A stretch of 64,000 nt of DNA. Origin: Hymenobacter metallilatus (lineage in GTDB: Bacteria; Bacteroidota; Bacteroidia; Cytophagales; Hymenobacteraceae). Under the pieces are notes generated by a model. It was not told the DNA's origin. It searched no databases and worked only from the letters and a program-made list of their open reading frames with translations. The DNA lies in NCBI RefSeq assembly GCF_003944705.1, contig NZ_RWIS01000015.1, positions 62,001 to 126,000 of the forward strand. The letters are read 5' to 3'. This document shows positions 30,696 to 59,923 of this stretch, piece by piece; position 1 is the stretch's first letter, and every line of letters starts with the position of its first letter. A program made the position numbers and the translations under genes.

Positions 30696-30937
30696 AGAAG
30701 GCAGGGGTGAAATTCTTTGTATATGGCAGTTTATCAATGGGTGCGCGGGGTTAACCTGCTTCCAGCCAGAAGGGTTATGTCGGTATAGAAAGGCCCTACA
30801 TTATTGTTTTCAATTGGCTATGAACACCTTATAAAAACTTGTTTTCGTATCCAATATGAGGTATTTGCCCCAGCTGGAAGAAGATACAGAAGTGAGGTAA
30901 TCCAAAATAAAATTTGCAAGTGTAAAATTCTGTCCCT

Positions 30938-30945
30938 TACCTTTG
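30938..30945 (+). promoter_or_regulatory. -7 promoter element of the sulfur operon (TACCTTTG)
   Basis: An exact TAnnTTTG match. A TTTG at about 30914 gives a plausible -33 box. It lies 30 bases before the riboswitch, and the same element and spacing recur in the second cassette at 47994..48001. Confidence 0.7.
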
Positions 30946-30974
30946 GGACATCAATTCTTTACCCCACTGAAGGA

Positions 30975-31072
30975 TTGTTTTTATACAGAGGCGTGGAGAG
31001 ACAGGCTCGACGAAACGCCGGCAACCAGCGGAACAACCGAAACGGTGCCAAGTCCTGACCATATAAAAACAA
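30975..31072 (+). promoter_or_regulatory. SAM-I riboswitch (S-box) upstream of the sulfate assimilation genes
   Basis: The P1 stem is an 11-bp perfect pairing of TTGTTTTTATA (30975-30985) with TATAAAAACAA (31062-31072). Between them lie the S-box core elements CAGAGGCGTGGAGAGACAGG, the kink-turn part GCTCGACGAAACG, CCGGCAACC and GGTGCCAAGTCCTGACC. S-adenosylmethionine binding stabilises P1 in this class. The 3' strand of P1 ends 6 bases before the GTG of a Cys-rich micro-ORF, so the usual terminator platform is replaced by something else. A sister copy lies at 47868..47965. Confidence 0.88.
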
Positions 31073-31078
31073 CAAGCC

Positions 31079-31177
31079 GTGAAATCCTTGTTCAACACCG
31101 CCGCCGCTTCTGCTACCTTCTCTGCTGTACAGCATGGATGTTGTGGGTTGATGGGCATGTGTTGTTGTCGGGGCTAA
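31079..31177 (+). CDS. Cysteine-rich leader micro-ORF (32 residues) after the SAM riboswitch
   Basis: GTG start and TAA stop. The residues are MKSLFNTAAASATF, then SAVQHGCC, then GLMGMCCCRG, with Cys at 21, 22, 28, 29 and 30. All five Cys codons are TGT although genes nearby mostly use TGC. Position, start type and Cys clustering match the paralogous micro-ORF after the second riboswitch. It is probably a leader peptide whose translation reports cysteine supply to the downstream cys genes; a functional small peptide is the alternative. The run TTGTTGT (31162-31168) can pair with ACAACAA (31069-31075) at the 3' side of P1. Confidence 0.7.
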   Translation: MKSLFNTAAASATFSAVQHGCCGLMGMCCCRG

Positions 31178-31263: not shown

Positions 31264-31386
31264 ACCATTTCTGTTTCGCCGAAAACCGCGCTGGGCCGTT
31301 GCCAAGGCTGTTTCTCCGTGAAGCTATCCTTTGGCCGAAACGCGCTGCCCTACATCGGTGGCCTGCTTCCTCCTCCCCTTCCTGCT

Positions 31387-32172
31387 ATGCCTGTAGCTGA
31401 TGCTGCGCCGGCCGTTCATGCCTTGCTGGACCGCCTGCGCCCTCTTGTAGTGGCCGCCTCCGCTCCGGAGCGGCTGCGTCTGGTAGCCGACACCTTCCCC
31501 GGTCAGGCCGTTTTTTCTACCTCGTTCGGGCTGGAAGACCAGATTATCAGCCACCTGATTTTCGCCCACGACCTGCCCATTGAGGTGTTCACCATCGATA
31601 CCGGCCGCAACTTCCAGGAAACCTATTCTACCTGGAACAAGACGCTGATTCGGTACCAGCAGCCCATTGCAGTGTACGCCCCCCAGCGCGAGGACCTGGA
31701 AAACCTGCTCTTGCAGAAAGGCCCGAACTCCTTCTACGAGAGCGTGGACAACCGCAAGGAGTGCTGCCACATCCGCAAGGTGGAGCCCCTGAACCGGGCC
31801 CTGGCCGGCCGTGGGGCCTGGGTAACCGGCATCCGGGCCGAACAGTCGCAGAACCGGCAGACGATGGACCCGGTGGAGTGGGACGCGGCGCACCAGCTCG
31901 TCAAAATTCACCCGCTCTTCGACTGGACCTGGGAGCAGGCGCTGGCCTTTGTGCAGCAAGAGGGCATTCCGGTAAACCCGCTGCACCAGCAGGGTTTTGT
32001 GAGCATCGGCTGCGCGCCCTGCACCCGCGCCATCCGCCTCGGTGAGGATTTCCGGGCCGGCCGCTGGTGGTGGGAAGACCTCTCGGCCAAAGAATGCGGC
32101 CTCCACGCCACCGCCCCCCACGACGGCCCCGACCCAGTGGTGGAGCCGGTACCAAACCACCTGTCATCCTGA
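31387..32172 (+). CDS. cysH: Phosphoadenylyl/adenylyl-sulfate reductase, CysH
   Basis: 261 residues from the ATG at 31387. An in-frame GTG at 31318 would add an unconserved tail. It shows AVFSTSFGLEDQIISHL in the PP-loop region, FTIDTGRNFQETY, and the iron-sulfur ligands Cys126-Cys127 and Cys209-x2-Cys212 (ECCHIRK and GCAPCTR). The catalytic Cys237 is in ECGLH. The four iron-sulfur Cys point to reduction of APS rather than PAPS, which agrees with the absence of an APS kinase here. It makes sulfite for CysIJ. It is the first structural gene after the riboswitch and Cys-rich leader. Confidence 0.93.
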   Translation: MPVADAAPAVHALLDRLRPLVVAASAPERLRLVADTFPGQAVFSTSFGLEDQIISHLIFAHDLPIEVFTIDTGRNFQETYSTWNKTLIRYQQPIAVYAPQREDLENLLLQKGPNSFYESVDNRKECCHIRKVEPLNRALAGRGAWVTGIRAEQSQNRQTMDPVEWDAAHQLVKIHPLFDWTWEQALAFVQQEGIPVNPLHQQGFVSIGCAPCTRAIRLGEDFRAGRWWWEDLSAKECGLHATAPHDGPDPVVEPVPNHLSS

Positions 32173-33257: not shown

Positions 33258-33352
33258 GTGGTGAAGTTGTGAAAGGTGAAGTTGTGAAAATCCTCACGCT
33301 TCACCCCACCAGCACAGCAATTCACAATTTCACAACCTCACAATTTCACCTC
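33258..33352. repeat. Direct and inverted GTGAAGTTGTGAAA-type repeat between cysD and cysN
   Basis: Two copies of GTGAAGTTGTGAAA on the left and complementary TTCACAATTTCACAACCTCA on the right. A fragment of the same kind (CACCATTTCACCACCTCACC) lies near 28950-28982. Confidence 0.65.
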
Positions 33353-34642
33353 ATGGACTTACTTCGATTTATTACCTGCGGCAGCGTGGACGACGGCAAG
33401 AGCACCCTGATCGGGCGGCTGCTGTACGATTCGGAATCCGTGTCGCTGGATGTGCTGGCGGCGCTGGAGAAGCGGCAGGCGTCGGGCGGCGTGGTGGATT
33501 TGGCCTTGCTGACCGACGGCCTGCGGGCCGAGCGGGAACAGGGCATCACCATCGACGTGGCTTACAAGTACTTCACCACCCCGCGCCGCAAGTTCATTAT
33601 CACCGATGCGCCCGGCCACGTGCAGTACACCCGCAATATGGTGACGGGCGCCAGCAACGCCGACCTGGCCATTGTGCTGGTAGATGCGCGCCAGGGCGTG
33701 ATTGAGCAGACCCGCCGCCACACCCTCATTGCCGCGCTGCTGGGCATCCGGCACTTTGTGCTGGCCGTGAACAAGATGGATCTGGTGAACTACGACGAGG
33801 CCGTTTTCGCCCAGATTGCCACCGATTACGCCGAGCTCACCAACCACTTCCACCTACCCGCCGCCACGGCCATTCCGCTGAGCGCCTTGCAGGGCGACAA
33901 CGTGGTGAAGCCCTCCCAGCACCTGCCCTGGTACACCGGTCCCAGCCTGCTCCAGCACCTGGAAAGCGTGCCCGGCGCCCAGGAAACCGAGGCCGCGCCC
34001 CGCTTCCAGGTACAGTACGTCATCCGGCCCCAGACACCCGAGCTGCCCGACTACCGCGGCTACGCCGGCCAGATTCTGAGCGGCCAGTACCGCCGCGGCC
34101 AGCGCGTGCGGGTGCTGCCCTCGGGCCTGGAATCGGAAATTGAAGCCATTGAGGTAAACCAGCAGGAAGTGGAAACTGCCTCCGCCCCACAGGCCGTGGT
34201 AATCCGCCTGCGCGACGACGTGGACGTGAGCCGCGGCGACGCCTTGGTGCCGGCCGGCCCCGAGGAGCCCATCCTCACCCGCGAGCTGGAAGCCACCCTG
34301 TGCTGGATGAGCGAGCAGCCTTTGTGGCCCGGCCGTAAGCTGCTGGTGCAGCACCACTCGGCCCTCTCGAAAGCGGCTGTGTCGGCCATTCTCTACAAGG
34401 TGAACGTGCAGACCTTCGCCCGGGTGCACACCGAGCAGGCCCAGCTCAACGACATCGTGCGGGTGCGCCTCAAAACCGCCCTGCCCCTGGCCGTGGATAA
34501 CTACGCCGACAACCGCACCACCGGCTCCTTCATCTTGGTAGACGAGCTAACCGGCGACACCCTGGCCGCCGGCCTAGTAGAAGCCGCCAACTCCGAGTAC
34601 TTCACCCCGCCCATGCAGCCCCCCGTGGCCTTCTCGATTTAG
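33353..34642 (+). CDS. cysN: Sulfate adenylyltransferase subunit 1 (GTPase), CysN
   Basis: 429 residues from the ATG at 33353; upstream frame is repeat sequence. EF-Tu-like GTPase motifs: GSVDDGKSTLIGRLLYDSE, EREQGITIDVAYKYF, DAPGHVQYTRNM and NKMDLV. The barrel domains end at YFTPPMQPPVAFSI. No CysC (APS kinase) domain is fused, and none is seen elsewhere in the cluster. GTP hydrolysis drives the CysD reaction. Confidence 0.95.
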   Translation: MDLLRFITCGSVDDGKSTLIGRLLYDSESVSLDVLAALEKRQASGGVVDLALLTDGLRAEREQGITIDVAYKYFTTPRRKFIITDAPGHVQYTRNMVTGASNADLAIVLVDARQGVIEQTRRHTLIAALLGIRHFVLAVNKMDLVNYDEAVFAQIATDYAELTNHFHLPAATAIPLSALQGDNVVKPSQHLPWYTGPSLLQHLESVPGAQETEAAPRFQVQYVIRPQTPELPDYRGYAGQILSGQYRRGQRVRVLPSGLESEIEAIEVNQQEVETASAPQAVVIRLRDDVDVSRGDALVPAGPEEPILTRELEATLCWMSEQPLWPGRKLLVQHHSALSKAAVSAILYKVNVQTFARVHTEQAQLNDIVRVRLKTALPLAVDNYADNRTTGSFILVDELTGDTLAAGLVEAANSEYFTPPMQPPVAFSI

Positions 34643-34651
34643 GCTGATGAA

Positions 34652-34788
34652 CGTCATGCTGAGCTTGCCGAAGCATCTCTACCGCTGGCTAATTAGATGG
34701 CAGCACCGATAACCGCTCCATAGCCCAGGGTTTAAACCTGAACCGCCCAAGCAAAGCGGTAGAGATGCTTCGGCAAGCTCAGCATGAC
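34652..34788. repeat. Dispersed palindromic repeat, family B, copy 1
   Basis: The arms are GTCATGCTGAGCTTGCCGAA, continuing GCATCTCTACCGC, and the complementary right end CTTCGGCAAGCTCAGCATGA. The centre includes ATAGCCCAGGGTTTAAACC, shared with copy 2. It lies between cysN and cobA. Confidence 0.8.
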
Positions 34789-34825
34789 CGACAATTCACT
34801 CAATCACCAACTCACTCATTCACCG

Positions 34826-35593
34826 ATGCAAACGCCCCGCCTTACGGTACTGGGTGCCGGCCCCGGCGACCCGGAGCTGCTCACGCTCAAAGGGGCGCGG
34901 GTGCTGTCGGAAGCCGATGTGATTTTGTACGACGCGCTGGCTAACCGCATCCTGCTCGGGCACGCCCGCCCAGAGGCCGTGCTGGTGCCCGTGGGCAAGC
35001 GGCGCGGCATGCGCAGCCACTCGCAGGACGACATCAACGCCCTGATTGTGGACTACGCCCGCCGCTACGGCCACGTGGTGCGCCTCAAGGGTGGCGACCC
35101 GTTCGTGTTCGGGCGGGGCCGGGAGGAAATGCTTTATGCCGAAGCCCACGGCCTGCTGACGGACTATGTGCCCGGCATCAGCAGCGCGGTGGCCGCGGCC
35201 GGAGCGGCGGGTATTCCCGTTACGCACCGGGGCCTGAGCGAAGGGTTCCGGGTGATTACGGCCACCACCGCCACCGGTGAGCTGGCCGGCAGCATCCGGG
35301 AAGCCGCCCGCGACGCCCGCGGCACCACCGTCATTCTCATGGGCCTGGGTGAGCTGCCGCGCATTGTACAGGCCTTCTGCGAGCAGGGCCACGCCGACAC
35401 CCCAGCCGCCATCATCCAGAATGGCACCCTGCCCCACGCCCAGCTGGTAACCGGCCCGGTTGCCGAACTGCCCGCCCGCGCCGCCGCCGCTGAAATCGGT
35501 GCGCCGGCCATCATCATTATTGGAGAAGTAACCCGCCTGGCCACCCCAGAGAAGCTGGCGCTGCTGCCGGAACTGTACGCGGCGGTAGCCTGA
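34826..35593 (+). CDS. cobA: Uroporphyrinogen-III C-methyltransferase (SUMT)
   Basis: 255 residues from the ATG at 34826; the earlier frame start lies in the repeat. VLGAGPGDPELLTLKGARVL, DALANRILL, VRLKGGDPFVFGRGREEM, YVPGISSAVAAAGAAGIPVTHR and IIIIGEVTRL are the family signatures. It methylates uroporphyrinogen III to precorrin-2, feeding siroheme for CysI. The precorrin-2 dehydrogenase/chelatase domain is a separate gene at 43508, so the CysG functions are split here. Confidence 0.94.
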   Translation: MQTPRLTVLGAGPGDPELLTLKGARVLSEADVILYDALANRILLGHARPEAVLVPVGKRRGMRSHSQDDINALIVDYARRYGHVVRLKGGDPFVFGRGREEMLYAEAHGLLTDYVPGISSAVAAAGAAGIPVTHRGLSEGFRVITATTATGELAGSIREAARDARGTTVILMGLGELPRIVQAFCEQGHADTPAAIIQNGTLPHAQLVTGPVAELPARAAAAEIGAPAIIIIGEVTRLATPEKLALLPELYAAVA

Positions 35594-35613: not shown

Positions 35614-35771
35614 CGTCATGCTGAGCGAAGCCGAAGCATTTCTACTGCTGGCTAATCAGGTAACAGCACCGATAACCGCTCCATAGCCCAGGGTTTAAAC
35701 CCTGGGCTACTGAAACGCCCAAACGAAGCGGTAGAGATGCTTCGGCAAGCGGACGCCAGATAGAGCATGAC
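35614..35771. repeat. Dispersed palindromic repeat, family B, copy 2
   Basis: The left end is CGTCATGCTGAGCGAAGCCG. The right part is GCGGTAGAGATGCTTCGGCA, then a broken end before AGCATGAC. The centre has the internal palindrome AGCCCAGGGTTTAAACCCTG. It lies between cobA and cysJ. Confidence 0.75.
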
Positions 35772-35820
35772 TTCTTCCTTCTCTGACCCGCCCAACCCAC
35801 TGCCCCAACCACCACGTCCT

Positions 35821-37674
35821 ATGTCACTTCTTTCAGCTTCCCCCACGCTTCCCATTGGCCTCGACGACCAGGCGCTGCAGCAGTTGGCGGCGGGCCTCAC
35901 CTCCCAGCAGCTGGTGTGGCTGAGCGGCTACCTCTACGGCCGCGCCGGCGCGGCGGCCCCCGTTGCGGCCGTGGCCCCGGCTCCGGCGGTGGCGGAAGCC
36001 GCCGCGGCTAGTCGGCTTACCATCCTGTTCGGCTCCCAGACCGGCAACAGCAAGAAAGCCGCCGGCCTAGTGGCCGAGGCGGCCCGCCGCCGGGGCCTGC
36101 AGCCGCAGGTGCGCGACATGAACGACTACCCCACCAAGGACCTCAAAACCGAGCAGTTGCTGCTGGTGGTGGTGAGCACCCAGGGGGAAGGCGACCCGCC
36201 CATTGCGGCCGAGGAGCTGCACCAGTTCCTGCTCAGCAACCGCGCCCCCAAGCTGCCCGACCTGCAATACGCCGTGCTGGCCCTGGGCGACAAAAGCTAC
36301 CTGCAGTTCTGCCAGACCGGTTTCGAGTTCGACCAGCGCCTGGCTGAGCTGGGTGGCCGCCGCCTGGCCGAACGGCTGGATTGCGACGTGACCTTCGAGG
36401 ACGAAACCCGCCAGTGGGCCGAACAGGTGCTTAGCCATATTGCCGAGCTGCAGCCCGCCCCGGCCCCTGTAACGGCTGGCGCAGCCGTAGCCGCGCCGGT
36501 AGTAGCGGCCGTGGGCGCGGGCTACGCGCCGGAAGTGGCTCCGCTGCCTGCCGCCGTGGAGTACAACGCCCGCAACCCCTTCGGGGCGGAGCTGCTGGAG
36601 AAGATCCAGCTCAACGGCCGGGGCTCCACCAAAGAAACCTACCACTTGGAGTTTTCCCTGGCTGACTCGGGCCTGACCTACGAGCCCGGCGACGCCCTGA
36701 TGGTGCAGCCCCGCAACCGCCCAGCGCTGGTGCAGGAGGTATTGCAGGCTGCCCGCCTGTCCGAAGCTGCCCCGGTGCGCCTCGAAGCCGAGGAGCTGGA
36801 CCTGACCACCGCCCTCACCGAGCGGCTGGAATTGTCGGTCATCACCCGCGACGTGCTGGAGCGCTACGCCGCCGTGGCCCCGCAGCACCCGCGCCTCCGC
36901 GAAATCCTGGCCGATACGGCCGGGCTGGGCACCTACCTCTACGGCCGCGACGTGGCCGACTTGCTCACCGAGTTTCCGGTGGAGCTGTCGGGGCAGCAGC
37001 TGGCGGCGGTGCTGCGGCCGTTGCCGGCCCGGGCGTATTCCATTGCATCCTCGCTGCTGGCCCACCCCGAGGAAGTGCACCTGACGGTGGGAGCCGTGCG
37101 CTACGAAACCCACGGCCGCGCCAAGCACGGGGCCTGCTCCGGCTACCAGGCCGACCACCTCCACCTCGGCGACACGGCCCGGGTGTGGGTGGACCGCAAC
37201 GAGTACTTCAAGCTGCCGCAGGATGCCGCCACCGACATTATCATGGTGGGCCCCGGCACCGGGGTAGCACCCTTCCGGGCCTTCGTGGAGGAGCGGGCCG
37301 AAACCGGCGCTACCGGCCGCAACTGGCTGCTGTTCGGCAACCCCCACTTCACCACCGACTTCCTGTACCAGACCGAGTGGCAGCAACACCTCAAGCGCGG
37401 CACCCTCGACCGCCTCGACGTGGCCTTCTCCCGCGACCAAACCCAGAAGCTCTACGTGCAGCACCGCCTGCTGGAACAAAGCCGCCGCCTCTACGACCAG
37501 CTCGAAAACGGCGCCTACTTCTACGTGTGCGGCGACAAATCCCGCATGGCCCACGACGTGCAGCAGGCCCTGCGTCAGATCATCCAGCAGGAAAGTGGCC
37601 ACGACGCCGACTACGCCGCCGAGTACCTGCGCCAGCTCAAGAAGTCGCGCCGGTTCTTGGAGGATGTGTACTAA
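35821..37674 (+). CDS. cysJ: Sulfite reductase flavoprotein subunit, CysJ
   Basis: 617 residues from the ATG at 35821. A flavodoxin (FMN) domain covers about 60-210 with LFGSQTGNSKKAAGLVAEAA and STQGEGDPP. An Ala/Pro-rich linker follows. The FAD domain has RAYSIASS and HGACSGY, and the NADPH domain has IMVGPGTGVAPFRAFVEERA, FFGNP-like LLFGNPH and FYVCGDKSRMAHDV. It passes electrons from NADPH via FAD and FMN to the CysI hemoprotein at 41646. Two genes for outer-membrane-type proteins separate them, which is unusual. Confidence 0.92.
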   Translation: MSLLSASPTLPIGLDDQALQQLAAGLTSQQLVWLSGYLYGRAGAAAPVAAVAPAPAVAEAAAASRLTILFGSQTGNSKKAAGLVAEAARRRGLQPQVRDMNDYPTKDLKTEQLLLVVVSTQGEGDPPIAAEELHQFLLSNRAPKLPDLQYAVLALGDKSYLQFCQTGFEFDQRLAELGGRRLAERLDCDVTFEDETRQWAEQVLSHIAELQPAPAPVTAGAAVAAPVVAAVGAGYAPEVAPLPAAVEYNARNPFGAELLEKIQLNGRGSTKETYHLEFSLADSGLTYEPGDALMVQPRNRPALVQEVLQAARLSEAAPVRLEAEELDLTTALTERLELSVITRDVLERYAAVAPQHPRLREILADTAGLGTYLYGRDVADLLTEFPVELSGQQLAAVLRPLPARAYSIASSLLAHPEEVHLTVGAVRYETHGRAKHGACSGYQADHLHLGDTARVWVDRNEYFKLPQDAATDIIMVGPGTGVAPFRAFVEERAETGATGRNWLLFGNPHFTTDFLYQTEWQQHLKRGTLDRLDVAFSRDQTQKLYVQHRLLEQSRRLYDQLENGAYFYVCGDKSRMAHDVQQALRQIIQQESGHDADYAAEYLRQLKKSRRFLEDVY

Positions 37675-37817: not shown

Positions 37818-37963
37818 CCCTAAAACCCTTCTTCCGTTCCATGCCTGCTGTTTTTCCAAGACGATGTTGTAGCCGGTAACGGCCGTTGCGCCCCGGGCGC
37901 GGGGGCTGCGCCGGCCTGCCGTCTGCCCCGTCCCGGGTCCTTTCTCCCCTTGTAAAAACATTG

Positions 37964-40867
37964 ATGAAACATCTTCTTTCCTCTTCCTTCCTAGTACCGG
38001 CGCTGGTTGCAGCCAGCGCCACCGGCCTGCACGCCCAGGAGGCCCTGATTTCGGTGAGCGGCACCGTGCGCGAAAAAACTACCAGCGAGCCGCTGCCGGG
38101 CGTGAGCGTTATTGTGAAGGGCGGCACCACCGGCACGCTCAGCGACGGTAACGGCCAGTTTGCCCTGAAAGCCAAGCTGCGGTTTCCGTTCACGCTGGTG
38201 TTCAACACGCTGGGCTACGAGTCGCGGGAGCTGGAAATTGCCAGCGGCAGCCAGCCCATCAGCGTGCAGTTGGAGTCGAAGGCCGTGTCGATGAACGAGG
38301 TGGTGGTGTCGGCGTCGCGGGTGGAGGAAAGCCGGCTGACCTCGCCGGTGGCCATTGAGAAGCTCGACATCCGGGCCATCAAGGAAACCCCGGCCCCCAG
38401 CTTTTACGACGCGCTGGAAAACGTGAAGGGCGTGCAGATGACCACCAGTTCGCTCACGTTCAAAGTACCCAATACCCGCGGCTTCAACATCCCCAACAAC
38501 TTCCGCTTTATGCAGCTGGTGGACGGGGTGGACATGCAGGCGGCCACCCTGGGCGTGCCGCTGGGCAACGCCATCGGGCCCACCGAGCTGGATGTGGCTT
38601 CGGTGGAAATTACGCCCGGCGCGGCCTCGGCCCTCTACGGCATGAACGCCATCAACGGCATGGCCAACCTCACCACCAAAAGCCCCTTCAACTACCAGGG
38701 CCTGAGCGTGTACCAGAAGGTGGGCGTAAACCACGTGGACGGCAAAGACCGGGACCCGAGCGTGCTGACGGAAACGGCCGTGCGCTGGGCCCAGAGCCTG
38801 GGCGCTTCGGGCCGCTGGGCCTATAAGGTGAACGGCAGCTTCCTGCGCGGCACCGACTGGCTCGCCAACACCCAGAACGACCAGAACCCGCAGAACCTAG
38901 CGTCGGCTAACCCGCGCTTCCCGGAGCTGAGCGGGGCCAACAACCCCGCCGCCGACCTCTGGAACCGCTACGGCGACGACAACGCCGGCAACGTGAGCAT
39001 CACCATTCCTTACCAGGGCCGCAACGAAACCTTCAACGTGCGCCGCACGGGCTACTACGAGCGGGACCTCACCAACCCTATCGTGCGCAACATCAAGGCC
39101 GACGCCAGCCTGCACTACAAGCTCACCGATAAGCTGGAGCTGAGCTACGGCTACCGGTTCGGGCTGATGGACGGCGTGTTCCAGCGCGGCAACAAGATTC
39201 AGCTGGATGGCGTGACGGTGCAGAACCACAAGGTGGAGCTGAAGGGCGAGAACTTCACGGCCCGCGCCTACATGCTGGTCGAAAACACTGGCAACTCCTA
39301 CAACCTCAACCCGCTGGCCCTGAACCTGGACCTGCAGAACGGCTCCAACGCCGCCTGGGGCACGAAGTTCCGGACGGAGCTGCAAAGCCAGCTGAGTGGC
39401 GGAGCCACGTTGGCCCAGGCCATGCAGCAGGCCCGCACCGTGGCCGACGCCGGCCGCGCCGTGCCCGGTACGCCTGCCTTCGACGCGCTGAAAGCCCAGA
39501 TTGTGAAAACCAACAACTGGGACAGCGGCGTGAACGTGCCCGGCGCGCCCATCCCGGGTGGGGCCGCCCTCACCCAGCGCAGCCGCACTTACCACACCGA
39601 CGCCATCTGGAACCTGGGCCCGCAGGTGAAGTTTGCCGATGTGCTGCTGGGGGCCGATGCCCGCCTCTACGAGGTAATTCCGGACGGCAACAACTTCGTG
39701 GATTTCAGTCGCCCGCTCACCGAGCGCACCCAGCCCGGCGGCCAGAACCAGTACTACAAGAAAATCGGGGGCTTCGGGCAGGCCACCAAGCGCCTGCTGC
39801 AGGACCGCCTGAAGCTCACCGCCTCGCTGCGCCTCGACTACAACCCGGAGTTCAACCCCAAGCTGAACCCGCGGGTGGCAGCGGTGTACACGGCCGGCGG
39901 CCTGCACAACTTCCGGGCCTCGTACCAGAACGGCTGGCGCTTCCCGTCACTTTTTGAGGCGCTGTCGTTTGTGAACAACGGCAACGTGCGCCGGGTAGGC
40001 GGTTTGGCCCGCGTGAACGAGGGGCTGAACTACCTCGACAACTCCTACACGCTGGCTTCTATTTCGCAGTTCAACGCCGCCGTGAATGCCTACGTGGCCG
40101 CCAACGCCGGCACCACCGCCAGCCAAGCCGCCCTGCGTCCCGAAATCCGGGGCGTGCTGCAGGTGGGCAACCTGCCCACCGAGCAGCCCGAGCAGATTAA
40201 CGCCTACGAGGTGGGCTACCGCAGCGTGCTGCTGGATAACCGACTCTCCATCGACGCCGACGCCTACGTGAACATCTACTCCGGCTTTCTGGGCCAAGTG
40301 GAAGTAAGCGTGCCCAAAAACGCCGCCGGCCAGCAGGTGCCGGTAGGCTCCGATGATGCCGTGCTGGCGGCTCTCAACAGCAACCGCGCCGCCCGCCAGG
40401 ACCGGTACCGGGTGTACACCAACGCCCGCAACAACTACCGCAGCTACGGCTCCACGCTGGGGGTCACCTACAACTTCTACCAGAAGTACACCTTGGGCGG
40501 TAACGTGAACTACAACGCCCTGTCGGCCAACAACGCCCCCGACATCTTCGTGACGGGCTTCAACACCCCGCACTGGGTCACCAACGTGAGCTTCGGCAAC
40601 CGCGAAATTGTGCGCAACGTGGGCTTCAACCTGGTGTGGCGTCACCAGAGCACCTTCTACTGGGAAAGCCCCCTGGCCAACGGCCGCGTGCCCGCCTACC
40701 AAACCGTGGATGCCCAGGTGAACGTGCGCGTGCCTGCCCTCAAAACCACCATCAAAGCCGGCGGCGCCAACCTCTTCAACAACCGCTACTACCAGTACGC
40801 CGCCGGCCCCACCATCGGGGGCCTGTACTACGTGGCTTTGACGTTTGATAATACCGTGTTGCGGTAA
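37964..40867 (+). CDS. TonB-dependent receptor in the sulfur cluster
   Basis: 967 residues from the ATG at 37964. The signal peptide ends near GLHAQ. A carboxypeptidase-regulatory-like domain follows (VSGTVREKTTSEPLPGVSV, about 25-110), then a plug (VVVSASRVEESRLTSPVAIE, TRGFNIPNNFRFMQLVDGVD and SVEITPGAASALYGMNAING) and a beta-barrel ending in a C-terminal aromatic strand (YYVALTFDNTVLR). It imports a ligand across the outer membrane using TonB energy. No SusD partner is present. Its place between cysJ and cysI suggests a sulfur compound or a cofactor of sulfite reductase (iron or a tetrapyrrole). That link is inference. It runs with 5 bases spacing into the DUF2490 gene. Confidence 0.9.
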   Translation: MKHLLSSSFLVPALVAASATGLHAQEALISVSGTVREKTTSEPLPGVSVIVKGGTTGTLSDGNGQFALKAKLRFPFTLVFNTLGYESRELEIASGSQPISVQLESKAVSMNEVVVSASRVEESRLTSPVAIEKLDIRAIKETPAPSFYDALENVKGVQMTTSSLTFKVPNTRGFNIPNNFRFMQLVDGVDMQAATLGVPLGNAIGPTELDVASVEITPGAASALYGMNAINGMANLTTKSPFNYQGLSVYQKVGVNHVDGKDRDPSVLTETAVRWAQSLGASGRWAYKVNGSFLRGTDWLANTQNDQNPQNLASANPRFPELSGANNPAADLWNRYGDDNAGNVSITIPYQGRNETFNVRRTGYYERDLTNPIVRNIKADASLHYKLTDKLELSYGYRFGLMDGVFQRGNKIQLDGVTVQNHKVELKGENFTARAYMLVENTGNSYNLNPLALNLDLQNGSNAAWGTKFRTELQSQLSGGATLAQAMQQARTVADAGRAVPGTPAFDALKAQIVKTNNWDSGVNVPGAPIPGGAALTQRSRTYHTDAIWNLGPQVKFADVLLGADARLYEVIPDGNNFVDFSRPLTERTQPGGQNQYYKKIGGFGQATKRLLQDRLKLTASLRLDYNPEFNPKLNPRVAAVYTAGGLHNFRASYQNGWRFPSLFEALSFVNNGNVRRVGGLARVNEGLNYLDNSYTLASISQFNAAVNAYVAANAGTTASQAALRPEIRGVLQVGNLPTEQPEQINAYEVGYRSVLLDNRLSIDADAYVNIYSGFLGQVEVSVPKNAAGQQVPVGSDDAVLAALNSNRAARQDRYRVYTNARNNYRSYGSTLGVTYNFYQKYTLGGNVNYNALSANNAPDIFVTGFNTPHWVTNVSFGNREIVRNVGFNLVWRHQSTFYWESPLANGRVPAYQTVDAQVNVRVPALKTTIKAGGANLFNNRYYQYAAGPTIGGLYYVALTFDNTVLR

Positions 40868-46127: not shown

Positions 46128-47585
46128 TTACTTCTCTATAGTTAATTCCCCAGCCTGCCCCAGCTTGCTGTGCTTGCGGCCGTAGCCGTAGTAGATGGCC
46201 AGGCCAATAGCCAGCCACACGGCCAGCCGCAGCCAGGTTTCCCAGGGCAGCGACACCATCATCACCACGCAGGTGAGAATGCCCAGGATGGGCACCACTG
46301 GCACCCAGGGCGTGCGGAACCCGCGCGGGGCATCGGGCTCCCGCTTGCGCATGATGAGGATGCCCACGCACACCATCACGAAGGCCAGCAGCGTGCCGAT
46401 GCTCGTCATCTCGCCCACCACCGAAATGGGCACGAAGCCCGCAAACAGCGCAATGAACAGCCCCAGCAGCAGGTTCGACTGCAGCGGCGTGCGGAACCGC
46501 TCGTGAATCCGGGCGAAAACCGGGGGCAGCAGGCCGTCTTTGGCCATGCTGAAAAACACCCGGCTCTGCCCCAGCAAATCCACCAGAATTACGGAGGTGT
46601 AGCCGATGATGATGGCCAGAATCACGGCCGACGACAACCAGGCGTAGGGCGTTTTCTCGATGGCAATGGCCACCGGCGCGGCGCTGTTCTTGAACTCGGT
46701 GTAGTTGGCCAGGCCCGTCATCACGTGCCCGAACAGCACGAACAGCACGGTGCAAATCAGCAACGAGCCGATGATACCGATGGGCATGTTGCGCTGGGGG
46801 TTCTTGGTTTCCTGGGCCATGGTGGCCACAATATCAAACCCGATGAACACAAAGAACACCACGCCCGCCCCGCGCAGGATGCCGCTCCAGCCAAACTCCC
46901 CAAACACGCCGATATTCTCCGGGATGTAGGGTTGGTAGTTAGTGGGGTCGATGTACTGCCAGCCCAGGGCAATGAACACCAGCACTACGGCCACTTTCAG
47001 CGTGACCACCAGCGCATTAAACCACGCCGAGCCCGACGTGCCGCGGATAATAATCATGGTAATAGCCAGCACAATGAGCATGGCCGGAATATTCACGAAG
47101 CCGTGCACCTCAGCCCCGTTGGCCAGCTTGGCCGTCTCAAAGGGCGACATCACCAGCTGCGGGGGCAGGTTGATGCCATATTTGCTCAGGAATTTGAGCA
47201 GGTACTGCGACCAACTGATGGCCACCGTGGCCGCGCCCACCGAGTACTCCAGCACCAAATCCCAGCCGATAATCCAGGCGAAAAGCTCGCCCATGGTAGC
47301 GTAGGCGTAGGTATAGGCCGAGCCGGCCACCGGCACCATGGAGGCAAACTCGGCGTAGCACAGCGCCGAGAAGGCGCAGCCCACGGCCGCTACCACAAAC
47401 GAGAGCGTCACGGCCGGGCCGGCGTTGTTGGCGGCGGCAATGCCGGTGAGCGAGAACAAACCCGCCCCAATAATCACCCCAATGCCGATGGCAATGAGGT
47501 TGAAGCCGTTCAGACTTCGTTTCAGCGTTCCGGCGCCGGTTTCGGCGGCCTCCTGCCGTAGCAGTTCCAATGATTTTCTGAGCAT
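46128..47585 (-). CDS. APC-superfamily amino-acid permease under SAM-riboswitch control
   Basis: 485 residues from the ATG at 47585; an ATG at 47597 is also possible but directly abuts a perfect GC palindrome (47598-47611). Twelve or more helices; the family hallmarks are FNLIAIGIGVIIGAGLFSLTG, FSALCYAEFASMVPVAGSAY, FFVFIGFDIVATMAQETKNP and DLLGQSRVFFSMAKDGLLP, as in the cationic amino-acid transporter (CAT) branch. The gene lies 160 bases behind a SAM-I riboswitch and a Cys-rich micro-ORF identical in layout to that of the cys genes. A role in taking up methionine or cysteine is therefore inferred. The family alone does not give the substrate. Confidence 0.88.
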   Translation of the reverse strand: MLRKSLELLRQEAAETGAGTLKRSLNGFNLIAIGIGVIIGAGLFSLTGIAAANNAGPAVTLSFVVAAVGCAFSALCYAEFASMVPVAGSAYTYAYATMGELFAWIIGWDLVLEYSVGAATVAISWSQYLLKFLSKYGINLPPQLVMSPFETAKLANGAEVHGFVNIPAMLIVLAITMIIIRGTSGSAWFNALVVTLKVAVVLVFIALGWQYIDPTNYQPYIPENIGVFGEFGWSGILRGAGVVFFVFIGFDIVATMAQETKNPQRNMPIGIIGSLLICTVLFVLFGHVMTGLANYTEFKNSAAPVAIAIEKTPYAWLSSAVILAIIIGYTSVILVDLLGQSRVFFSMAKDGLLPPVFARIHERFRTPLQSNLLLGLFIALFAGFVPISVVGEMTSIGTLLAFVMVCVGILIMRKREPDAPRGFRTPWVPVVPILGILTCVVMMVSLPWETWLRLAVWLAIGLAIYYGYGRKHSKLGQAGELTIEK

Positions 47586-47714
47586 ACAGAGGTGCATCGG
47601 GCCGCGGCCCGACAGGTCGTAAAAAAGAGAAAGAGAAAAGCAGATAAAGCTTCCTGCCCCGCCTCAGCGGGCGCGCAGCCGTTCGGGCCACGGCGGGCCG
47701 GAACCAGGAGAATA

Positions 47715-47756: not shown

Positions 47757-47861
47757 CTAGCTACAACAACCCGCGCAACAACACCCCGTGGGCGCGCCTA
47801 ACGGGCACAGCACGGCAGCGGATACAACGGAACGGGCAAGTAAGCGGGGCGAAAAGTCCAC
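47757..47861 (-). CDS. Second cysteine-rich leader micro-ORF (34 residues)
   Basis: GTG start 6 bases after the 3' strand of P1 and TAG stop. The residues are MDFSPRLLARSVVSAAVLCP, then LGAPTGCCCAGCCS, with Cys at 19, 27, 28, 29, 32 and 33. Four of the six Cys codons are TGT. It shares with the cysH micro-ORF its place, the GCCGTG start context, a neutral hydrophobic N-terminal half and a C-terminal Cys cluster, but little exact sequence. A longer reading frame (minus, 47761..48135) overlaps it but runs through the riboswitch and is not believable. Confidence 0.68.
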   Translation of the reverse strand: MDFSPRLLARSVVSAAVLCPLGAPTGCCCAGCCS

Positions 47862-47867
47862 GGCAAG

Positions 47868-47965
47868 TTGTTTTTATATGGTCAGGAATTGGCACCGTTC
47901 CGGAGTTGCGGATGGTTGCCGACGCTTCTTCGAGCCTGTCTCTCAGCGCCTCTGTATAAAAACAA
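47868..47965 (-). promoter_or_regulatory. SAM-I riboswitch upstream of the amino-acid permease
   Basis: The same P1 pairing (TTGTTTTTATA with TATAAAAACAA) and the core ACAGAGGCGCTGAGAGACAG, GCTCGAAGAAGCG, TCGGCAACC and CGGTGCCAATTCCTGACC. P1, the promoter and the CATCAATTCTTT leader are almost identical to the copy before cysH. The internal P3/P4 loops have diverged with compensation, which argues for function. Confidence 0.88.
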
Positions 47966-47993: not shown

Positions 47994-48001
47994 CAAAGGT
48001 A
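47994..48001 (-). promoter_or_regulatory. -7 promoter element of the permease transcript (TACCTTTG)
   Basis: An exact TAnnTTTG match on the minus strand, followed by CATCAATTCTTT as in the cysH leader. It lies about 28 bases before the riboswitch. Confidence 0.68.
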
Positions 48002-48410
48002 AAGCTGGATTGCTGCCCCCGCAAACCCACCTGTTTTAGCGTCTGTAAACCGTAACGAAAGCCGGCACTCTGCCGCCTCTGGGTCGTCAGGCTAGGCCCC
48101 GTAAAGCCTGACGGTTCTCTCCCTGAGGCTGTCAACTACTTTCCAAACAGCTTTACTCATTGTCCACTTCCCTGGCGCCGACCCAGCGGTATAACGCCCG
48201 CCTGCTCGCCTCTGAACAGGCGGCCTGCTACGCCTGCCGCTAAGCCGAAAAACCCGCGACGCGCGCCGGAATCGAAGGTTTAACGGCGAAATTTATATTT
48301 TTTCCCGGCCGGTTTTAGGCGAAACTGGCACCGGAGTTGCAACCGTCGGAATAGCCGCCGGCGGGTACGCCGCGGCTTCACTCGCATTCAACCTCAACTC
48401 ACATAGCCTC
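48002..48410. other. Intergenic region between divergent permease and Spy-like genes
   Basis: About 410 bases. It holds a hairpin near 48087-48113 (GTCAGGCTAGGCCCCGTAAA, then GCCTGAC) and a CCTGCTCGCCTCTGAACAGG hairpin near 48200. An AT-rich patch (AAATTTATATTTTTT) precedes the sigma-54-type promoter at 48326. No coding frame is convincing. Confidence 0.5.
48326..48341 (+). promoter_or_regulatory. Sigma-54-type promoter (-24/-12)
   Basis: TGGCAC, five bases, TTGCA. The GG and GC dinucleotides are separated by exactly ten bases, matching the consensus TGGCACG-N4-TTGCA with one change at the seventh base. Transcription would begin about 12 bases later and leave a leader of about 60 bases before the ATG at 48411. 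Confidence 0.5.
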
Positions 48411-59810: not shown

Positions 59811-59822
59811 AGTCAAAAAAAA

Positions 59823-59910
59823 GCGAGCCAAAATCGCACCGCTCAACCGTTTACCCTTGCTACCTTCCGGTCCTGGGGGAGTTCAACAGGAGCTGGTCGT
59901 TCTGACTCGC
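59823..59910 (-). ncRNA. ffs: Small SRP RNA (4.5S-type)
   Basis: Reading the minus strand: the apical loop element CAGGACCGGAAGGTAGCAAG matches the conserved helix-8 tetraloop region of bacterial SRP RNA. The outer helix pairs the 5' GCGAGTCA with the 3' TGGCTCGC, and a run of eight T follows at 59815-59822. A TATCTTTG promoter element at 59916..59923 places the start at about 59910. The 88-nt length fits a short bacterial SRP RNA. It binds the M domain of Ffh, encoded elsewhere in this window. Confidence 0.9.
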
Positions 59911-59915
59911 CAGTG

Positions 59916-59923
59916 CAAAGATA
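59916..59923 (-). promoter_or_regulatory. -7 promoter element of the SRP RNA gene (TATCTTTG)
   Basis: An exact TAnnTTTG match ending five bases before the predicted RNA 5' end. Confidence 0.65.

Follow-up and report, generated by a model that had tools for sequence, protein, structure and literature searches.

Can a single leader RNA read both SAM and cysteine for a whole sulfate-assimilation operon? This question is raised by a locus of Hymenobacter metallilatus, found in the stretch of 64,000 nucleotides that we analysed at its full length (the window). An earlier note had described there an S-box followed closely by a short ORF ending in Cys codons, and had proposed that the two sensors act in series on one transcript. 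We confirmed this arrangement of a SAM-I aptamer and a Cys leader, and we found that its anatomy is strongly conserved. Judged from sequence comparisons, the two-input logic is plausible.

The leader of cysH and its copies in the genome

The first unit is made of the following features:

30914..30916 (+): promoter -33 element TTG, of a Bacteroidota-type promoter
30938..30945 (+): promoter -7 element TACCTTTG, TAnnTTTG type
30975..30985 (+): P1 5' strand TTGTTTTTATA
30978..31069 (+): SAM-I (S-box) aptamer, first copy, RF00162, 74.0 bits
31062..31072 (+): P1 3' strand TATAAAAACAA, with a proposed second role as leader initiation region
31079..31177 (+): first leader ORF, 32 codons, GTG start, translation MKSLFNTAAASATFSAVQHGCCGLMGMCCCRG

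The reading of an S-box was borne out by a covariance search of the window, in which the RF00162 match covers the full model (E 1.8e-15) and scores above the gathering threshold of 44.4. The two strands of P1 pair over 11 bp, as had been stated, and are separated from the GTG at 31079 by six bases (CAAGCC); the GTG-initiated ORF of 32 codons is present at the place announced. Its Cys codons, at 31139, 31142, 31160, 31163, and 31166, are all five TGT, which agrees with the earlier description and contrasts with the TGCTGC of cysH at 31762, and the peptide ends in CCCRG. The exclusive use of TGT is limited to this first copy, because the second one, presented below, has six Cys codons, i.e., four TGT and two TGC. 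Transcription should start a few bases past the -7 element, ahead of the aptamer. The leader stops at 31177, leaving a gap of 209 nt to the ATG at 31387, which is the likelier start of cysH in view of its conservation in aligned relatives. The sulfate-assimilation genes then follow:

31318..32172 (+): cysH (PAPS/APS reductase), NF002537, 254.1 bits
32349..33257 (+): cysD
33269..34642 (+): cysN
34784..35593 (+): uroporphyrinogen-III C-methyltransferase (siroheme)
35767..37674 (+): cysJ, TIGR01931, 717.3 bits
41646..43361 (+): cysI, TIGR02041, 793.5 bits
43439..45022 (+): siroheme synthase N-terminal domain fused to TauE/SafE

A TonB-dependent receptor gene (37886-40867) lies between cysJ and cysI in this cluster, and the window also carries a Bacteroidales small SRP RNA (59817-59919, -, 73.1 bits).

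A second SAM-I/leader unit, absent from the earlier note, is located in the same window, 17 kb off and on the opposite strand:

47994..48001 (-): -7 element TACCTTTG, with TTG at 48022-48024
47871..47962 (-): SAM-I aptamer, second copy, RF00162, 72.3 bits
47757..47861 (-): second leader ORF, 34 codons, GTG start, translation MDFSPRLLARSVVSAAVLCPLGAPTGCCCAGCCS, ending in TGCCCAGCCS
46128..47597 (-): APC amino-acid permease, PF13520, 190.2 bits

Here again, an 11-bp P1 is followed by six bases and then by the GTG, at 47861. The top NCBIfam match of the permease, NF053761 (561.3 bits), lies under its cut-off of 690. The genome contains four SAM-I sites in total, and a Cys leader ORF stands behind three of them: at the third site, ahead of a metY-like gene, an ATG-initiated ORF ends in RMRMRCCSSACCCCC, and at the fourth, ahead of metH, no such ORF was found. 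Each leader has one Rfam match at the gathering score, and no second aptamer of the kind that defines a tandem riboswitch was detected.

Leaders across the genus and the phylum

SAM-I is present in all 61 genomes of the genus. The 114 sites that we examined there were picked partly by aptamer length and are not a random draw: 30 loci came from the search listing and 80 places were fetched, 65 of these for their short aptamers. We call class A the sites whose P1 is TTTTTATA (72 sites), those with another P1 and metY downstream (4), and L110, 77 in total. They precede cysH (30), an ATP-grasp gene (17), an APC permease (16), metY (4), and other genes (10), the latter being mostly TonB-type receptors among those inspected. 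At 76 of the 77, an ORF of 26-55 codons with a Cys cluster starts 5-13 nt past the Rfam end. We scored as polyCys an ORF opening at the first ATG or GTG after P1, with at least 3 Cys, a CC, and at most 70 codons. This rule, whose choice of start is blind to Cys, gave a polyCys ORF at 73/77 class A sites, whereas 100 dinucleotide shuffles of each site lead one to expect 2.6. Of these 73 leaders, 68 have their start codon at +9 or +10 relative to the Rfam end, and in 71 the last Cys is no more than five codons from the stop. Three of the four misses (L053, L112, and L113) are due to an earlier spurious start that masks the leader, and the fourth, L058, is a real loss. L058 (compare L059) is the sole broken class A leader, in which a stop in frame and a frameshift precede an otherwise preserved Cys cluster; decay, an internal ATG start, or an assembly error may account for it.

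Class B groups 37 sites, located ahead of hom, metB, metH, and metX, and the lax polyCys rule fails at 33 of them. The four that pass are all metX sites (4 of the 6) and do so via CCSS; as a matter of judgement, we set them aside as leaders, since their TGCTGC adjoins a terminator-like hairpin and forms no run. Such a hairpin is found within 120 nt of P1 at 32/37 class B sites versus 15/77 class A sites.

A TAnnTTTG promoter element lies 10-100 nt upstream of P1 at 70 of the 77 class A sites, in nearly every case between -41 and -36, where mononucleotide shuffles would give 2.3 such sites, and a TTG stands 17-25 nt upstream of this -7 box at 67/77. Both sensors are thus located downstream of one conserved promoter, which supports the proposal that they act in series. 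The same Bacteroidota consensus is also given in the available excerpt of PMC9723704.

Two observations concern the genes behind these leaders. The ATP-grasp gene (17 genus sites and L190; e.g., L032, L034, and L037) is RimK-like, with a start reading ..KPIGIYFEHPEWFKPLFAELDRRG.., matches the RimK models weakly, and is possibly a thiol-peptide ligase candidate. In Hymenobacter volaticus, the element is found on plasmids ahead of TonB/SusC genes, and its leader is unannotated among the features listed.

Beyond the genus, a model built from 42 class A sites (R1) exceeds 90 bits only in this genus and in one sister genus, among the matches listed. Sites at the level of the order, Cytophagales, were picked by their similarity to R1, itself derived from class A, so that the rates obtained are not population rates: with a TATAA-type P1, a polyCys leader is present at 26/43 sites (metY 15/18, TonB 3/3, ATP-grasp 1/1, metX 2/7, metZ/metB-like 1/6, and unassigned genes 4/8). 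Five sites whose aptamer was not placed by the motif search (L150, L151, L154, L156, and L163) were dropped from this count; one of them, L150, has a leader ending in CMCCCELGC before metY. At four metZ/metB-like sites (L182, L184, L188, and L193), the start of the gene itself lies 7-10 nt past P1, and the TATAA-type P1 therefore appears to be a start-codon platform. At L162, L167, and L173, the ORF that follows the TATAA-type SAM-I ahead of metX contains no Cys run, and the ORFs of L167 and L173 both end in SIVERLT..Q. At the TonB-type loci L183, L187, and L198, which belong to other family members, a second polyCys ORF separates the first leader from the gene, some 140-150 nt past the aptamer.

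In the phylum search, the best 30 loci, mostly from other orders, gave a polyCys ORF at 1 of the 29 that could be scanned (L215, 89 nt past a canonical SAM-I). For named relatives, homology to MetY served to select 80 loci without regard to their leaders, and RF00162 is present at 50 of them. The following counts cover 39 of 44 RF00162 matches, those within 600 nt of metY; five matches farther upstream and 20 later-scanned loci are left out. With a TTATA-type P1, the leader is polyCys at 15/29 sites, Cys/Met-rich at 20/29, and either at 21/29; by our rule, 8/29 have neither kind. A terminator is found within 120 nt at none of these 29 sites and beyond that distance at four. With other P1 sequences, the leader is present at 0/10 and a terminator at 10/10. 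Shuffles over all 39 sites would give 0.26 polyCys and about 0.05 Cys/Met-rich ORFs.

The polyCys leaders of these relatives end, for instance, in ..CICMCCCC (Mucilaginibacter oryzae), ..TCMCCCIQ (Pedobacter rhizosphaerae), ..LMCCCCC (a Lewinella MAG), and ..CYCCMRMCC (Flavobacteriaceae bacterium 14752). That of Olivibacter domesticus, ..SCCMCMCC, is missed by the rule as an earlier ATG intervenes. Met-rich leaders end in ..MSMRMRMHMHLPTC (Sphingobacterium sp. GVS05A) or ..VMRMQMMMRML (Ancylomarina euxinus). Other orders of the parts also exist. In L237 and L248, SAM-I has its own terminator and a polyCys ORF lies some 270-325 nt farther on; in the single cases L276, L277, and L301 (two Balneolaceae/Balneola MAGs and one Bacteroidetes MAG), a Cys/Met-rich short ORF stands upstream of a canonical SAM-I with terminator, ahead of metY; and in three further single cases (L262, L278, and L302), a Cys ORF is present and SAM-I was not found. 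Taken as sequences, these leaders suggest that Cys/Met codons may be read widely before metY, and that sensing of SAM and of Cys/Met was probably joined there more than once, from varied part orders.

Frame, selection, and codon use of the leader ORF

In the 73 leaders given by the blind rule, we counted 420 Cys codons in the frame of the ORF, and 130 and 176 in the two alternative frames. The pN/pS of the leaders is 0.54 ahead of cysH (115 pairs), 0.51 ahead of the APC permease (8), and 0.63 ahead of the ATP-grasp gene (8), the only groups with more than one usable pair; by this measure, the leaders show the signature of purifying selection. Chance or low complexity as the origin of the leaders is ruled out by the shuffles, the frame counts, and selection. 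The earlier note had proposed a comparison with related genomes, and the leader came through it: frame and Cys codons are kept at 76/77 class A sites, pN/pS is about 0.5-0.6, and the leader recurs in named genera. In this, it resembles trp-type attenuators, i.e., a short ORF with a run of regulatory codons, preserved in frame and codons, before Cys genes. Searched against NCBIfam, the leader peptides belong to no family, and against Pfam they gave one sub-threshold chance match. Scanning the whole genome for runs of Cys codons gave no information, given how frequent TGCTGCTGC repeats are.

The preference for TGT extends to the whole set. TGT:TGC is 318:120 in leaders versus 24:267 in the genes behind them (309:111 and 46:299 under a slightly different cut), and the other two-fold codons are T-ending in 108/302 cases in leaders (108:194) and 1107/3924 in genes; the p-values of this preference overstate its certainty, because sites within and between genomes are related. 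UGU and UGC are both read by one tRNA, with anticodon GCA. The Cys-specific taste for UGU, the wobble-read codon, fits a sensor of Cys-tRNA supply.

The Cys run could instead act as a peptide, sensing metal or redox state or arresting the ribosome, and not as a read-out of Cys-tRNA charging. This would agree with the residues beyond Cys that some leaders have in common, such as the A(V/L)QHGCC of cysH, ATP-grasp, and TonB-receptor leaders. A peptide sensor, however, would have no need of a preference for UGU, which is a property of codons, and it accords poorly with Cys residues whose number and spacing vary freely and with the Met-rich variants before metY; we hold this explanation to be improbable. 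As for the shared motif (L001, L034, L090, L320, and L321), it may reflect a common origin or a constraint on RNA or peptide beyond Cys. The DNA palindrome GCTGTACAGCATGG lies directly ahead of the first Cys pair in many of the leaders that carry this motif.

Another possibility is that UGUUGU is an RNA element pairing with the ACAACA of P1, the ORF being incidental. In the predicted fold of the window copy, ACAACA (P1 strand and spacer) does pair with the UGU run. This long-range pairing is predicted in the window copy only and was rejected as a general feature: many sites carry AACAAGUUG in place of ACAACA, and Cys runs are also found at the end of metY leaders whose P1 strands differ considerably. 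The in-frame position of the Cys codons relative to the start, a pN/pS below 1, and a fold of aptamer plus leader whose stability does not exceed that of shuffles (z 0.65) strain this explanation further, and we give it almost no credence.

A proposed two-input leader and its known relatives

We consider it probable that these leaders form a two-input SAM/Cys device, whose genes are expressed only when the levels of both SAM and Cys are low. Its basis is the aptamer, promoter, geometry, frame, Cys clusters, selection, codon preference, and gene context observed above, from which we infer SAM binding, translation of the leader, ribosome stalling, and a rise in cysH expression upon Cys starvation. 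Translation in Bacteroidota initiates from A-rich, unstructured regions. Transcription would start just upstream of the SAM-I aptamer, and the P1 3' strand AUAUAAAA would be the A-rich ribosome-loading region of the leader, with the start codon 4-13 nt past P1. Because this strand is the A-rich stretch directly before the leader start, a P1 closed by SAM should block initiation by its geometry; and because the leader itself seems to initiate within it, the two sensors look fused, not merely adjacent. Neither this fusion nor the existence of a family of such leaders was part of the earlier note.

In classical attenuators, an untranslated leader leads to termination (superattenuation). With SAM bound and P1 closed, the leader would stay untranslated and the operon off. 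With SAM low and Cys-tRNA plentiful, the ribosome would reach the stop and depart, and the operon would still be shut. With SAM low and Cys-tRNA scarce, it would stall on UGU/UGC at the end of the ORF, allowing expression of the downstream genes. P1 gating combined with superattenuation would thus turn the genes on only when both are low. The stall takes place at the end of the ORF in tnaC, and the regulatory codons lie mid-leader in trp; here, a ribosome stalled at the ORF end would shield the region past the stop, in a tnaC-like rather than a trp-like way.

The shut-off by an unoccupied leader is the least certain of these steps. Neither in alignments of cysH leaders (11 and 5) nor in the folded metY leaders (14) did we find a terminator or antiterminator common to all, such as the intrinsic terminator with an alternative antiterminator of the trp type. 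Folded together, aptamer and leader also gain no stability over shuffled sequences (z 0.65). A lax scan found a terminator-like hairpin between leader and gene at 19/66 class A sites, and those located behind the two window copies are weak; a stricter scan of the interval between the first leader and cysH found none. Given that no conserved intrinsic terminator is present there, we propose, as a guess, Rho-dependent termination directly past the leader ORF. Rho is encoded in the genome, and C over G past the leader stop (1.27-1.31 in the genus) barely exceeds that of the genes themselves (1.22), so that base composition lends little support to this guess. Three Mucilaginibacter leaders (L236, L246, and L250) have a common hairpin past the stop, without a U-tract.

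The two sensors could also be independent neighbours. SAM-I would then work separately, through mRNA decay or the downstream gene, and attenuation by the Cys leader would take place whatever the SAM level. The other part orders (L237, L248, L215, L276, L277, and L301) would be in line with this. We nevertheless find it unlikely: in class A, the distance from P1 to the leader start is nearly fixed and conserved terminators are lacking, and at the four metZ/metB-like sites the start of a real gene is set by the same geometry of P1. Our preference goes to a two-input leader in which both sensors are fused. In a wider sense, we lean towards a device that is widespread in Bacteroidota: the start codon of a Cys/Met leader would serve SAM-I as its expression platform, NOT-SAM AND NOT-Cys would be computed by superattenuation, and the parts would have been joined more than once before metY.

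In the open-licence literature, a scope that takes in few subscription journals, we came across no account of SAM-I combined with a Cys leader. Canestrari et al. (2020) reportedly dealt with the polycysteine short ORFs of mycobacteria. According to the available part of PMC9094748, these are Cys-responsive attenuators before sulfur genes, and our leaders likewise place a short polyCys ORF ahead of such genes. Unlike the leaderless mycobacterial sORFs, however, the ORF described here has a -7 box at 30938-30945 and starts at 31079, more than 100 nt behind its promoter and beside SAM-I. In Rhodobacterales, uORFC-8-2 is a Cys-Cys leader before cysS, for which ribosome-mediated attenuation was proposed (PMC8632094), as we propose here from the Cys codons of a uORF; in contrast, it ends in an intrinsic terminator, and the available excerpt mentions no riboswitch. 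Leader-peptide attenuation is hinted at in Flavobacterium psychrophilum (PMC9723704, in the part available).

Other systems couple two inputs. The metE leader of Bacillus clausii also reads two metabolites, one by SAM-I, as described in the accessible part of PMC2258182, with tandem SAM-I and AdoCbl riboswitches that each have their own terminator, whereas in our leader an ORF serves as the second sensor, and SAM-I lacks a terminator. In Clostridium acetobutylicum, SAM and Cys are likewise both read for one sulfur operon, ubiG, by a Cys T-box and S-box antisense control (PMC2940859, in part); there, a T-box RNA and an antisense transcript are used, and here a serial cis leader. Close in design is also ppe2 of Mycobacterium tuberculosis, with a B12 riboswitch and a uORF under its control (PMC11260477); the excerpt available states that no earlier work had addressed the effects of uORFs associated with riboswitches. 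In both cases, a riboswitch governs translation of a short uORF, which governs the gene, a logic that is proposed here, and the uORF start adjoins the aptamer, the GTG being six bases past P1. On the contrary, the ppe2 uORF overlaps the gene start (termination-reinitiation), while ours stops at 31177 and cysH starts at 31387; in the same excerpt, it is not described as an amino-acid sensor, and ours carries a run of Cys codons.

If the two-input leader is real, the riboswitch would regulate a sensor and not a gene, by denying an attenuator its ribosome. Such a leader would be a natural cis-acting logic gate made of a metabolite-binding RNA and a translating ribosome. It would explain how Bacteroidota with SAM-I on cys/met genes do not cut off their supply of cysteine in response to a high or low SAM level alone. 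It would also predict a class of small, translated, and so far unannotated ORFs before cysH, metY, and transporter genes.
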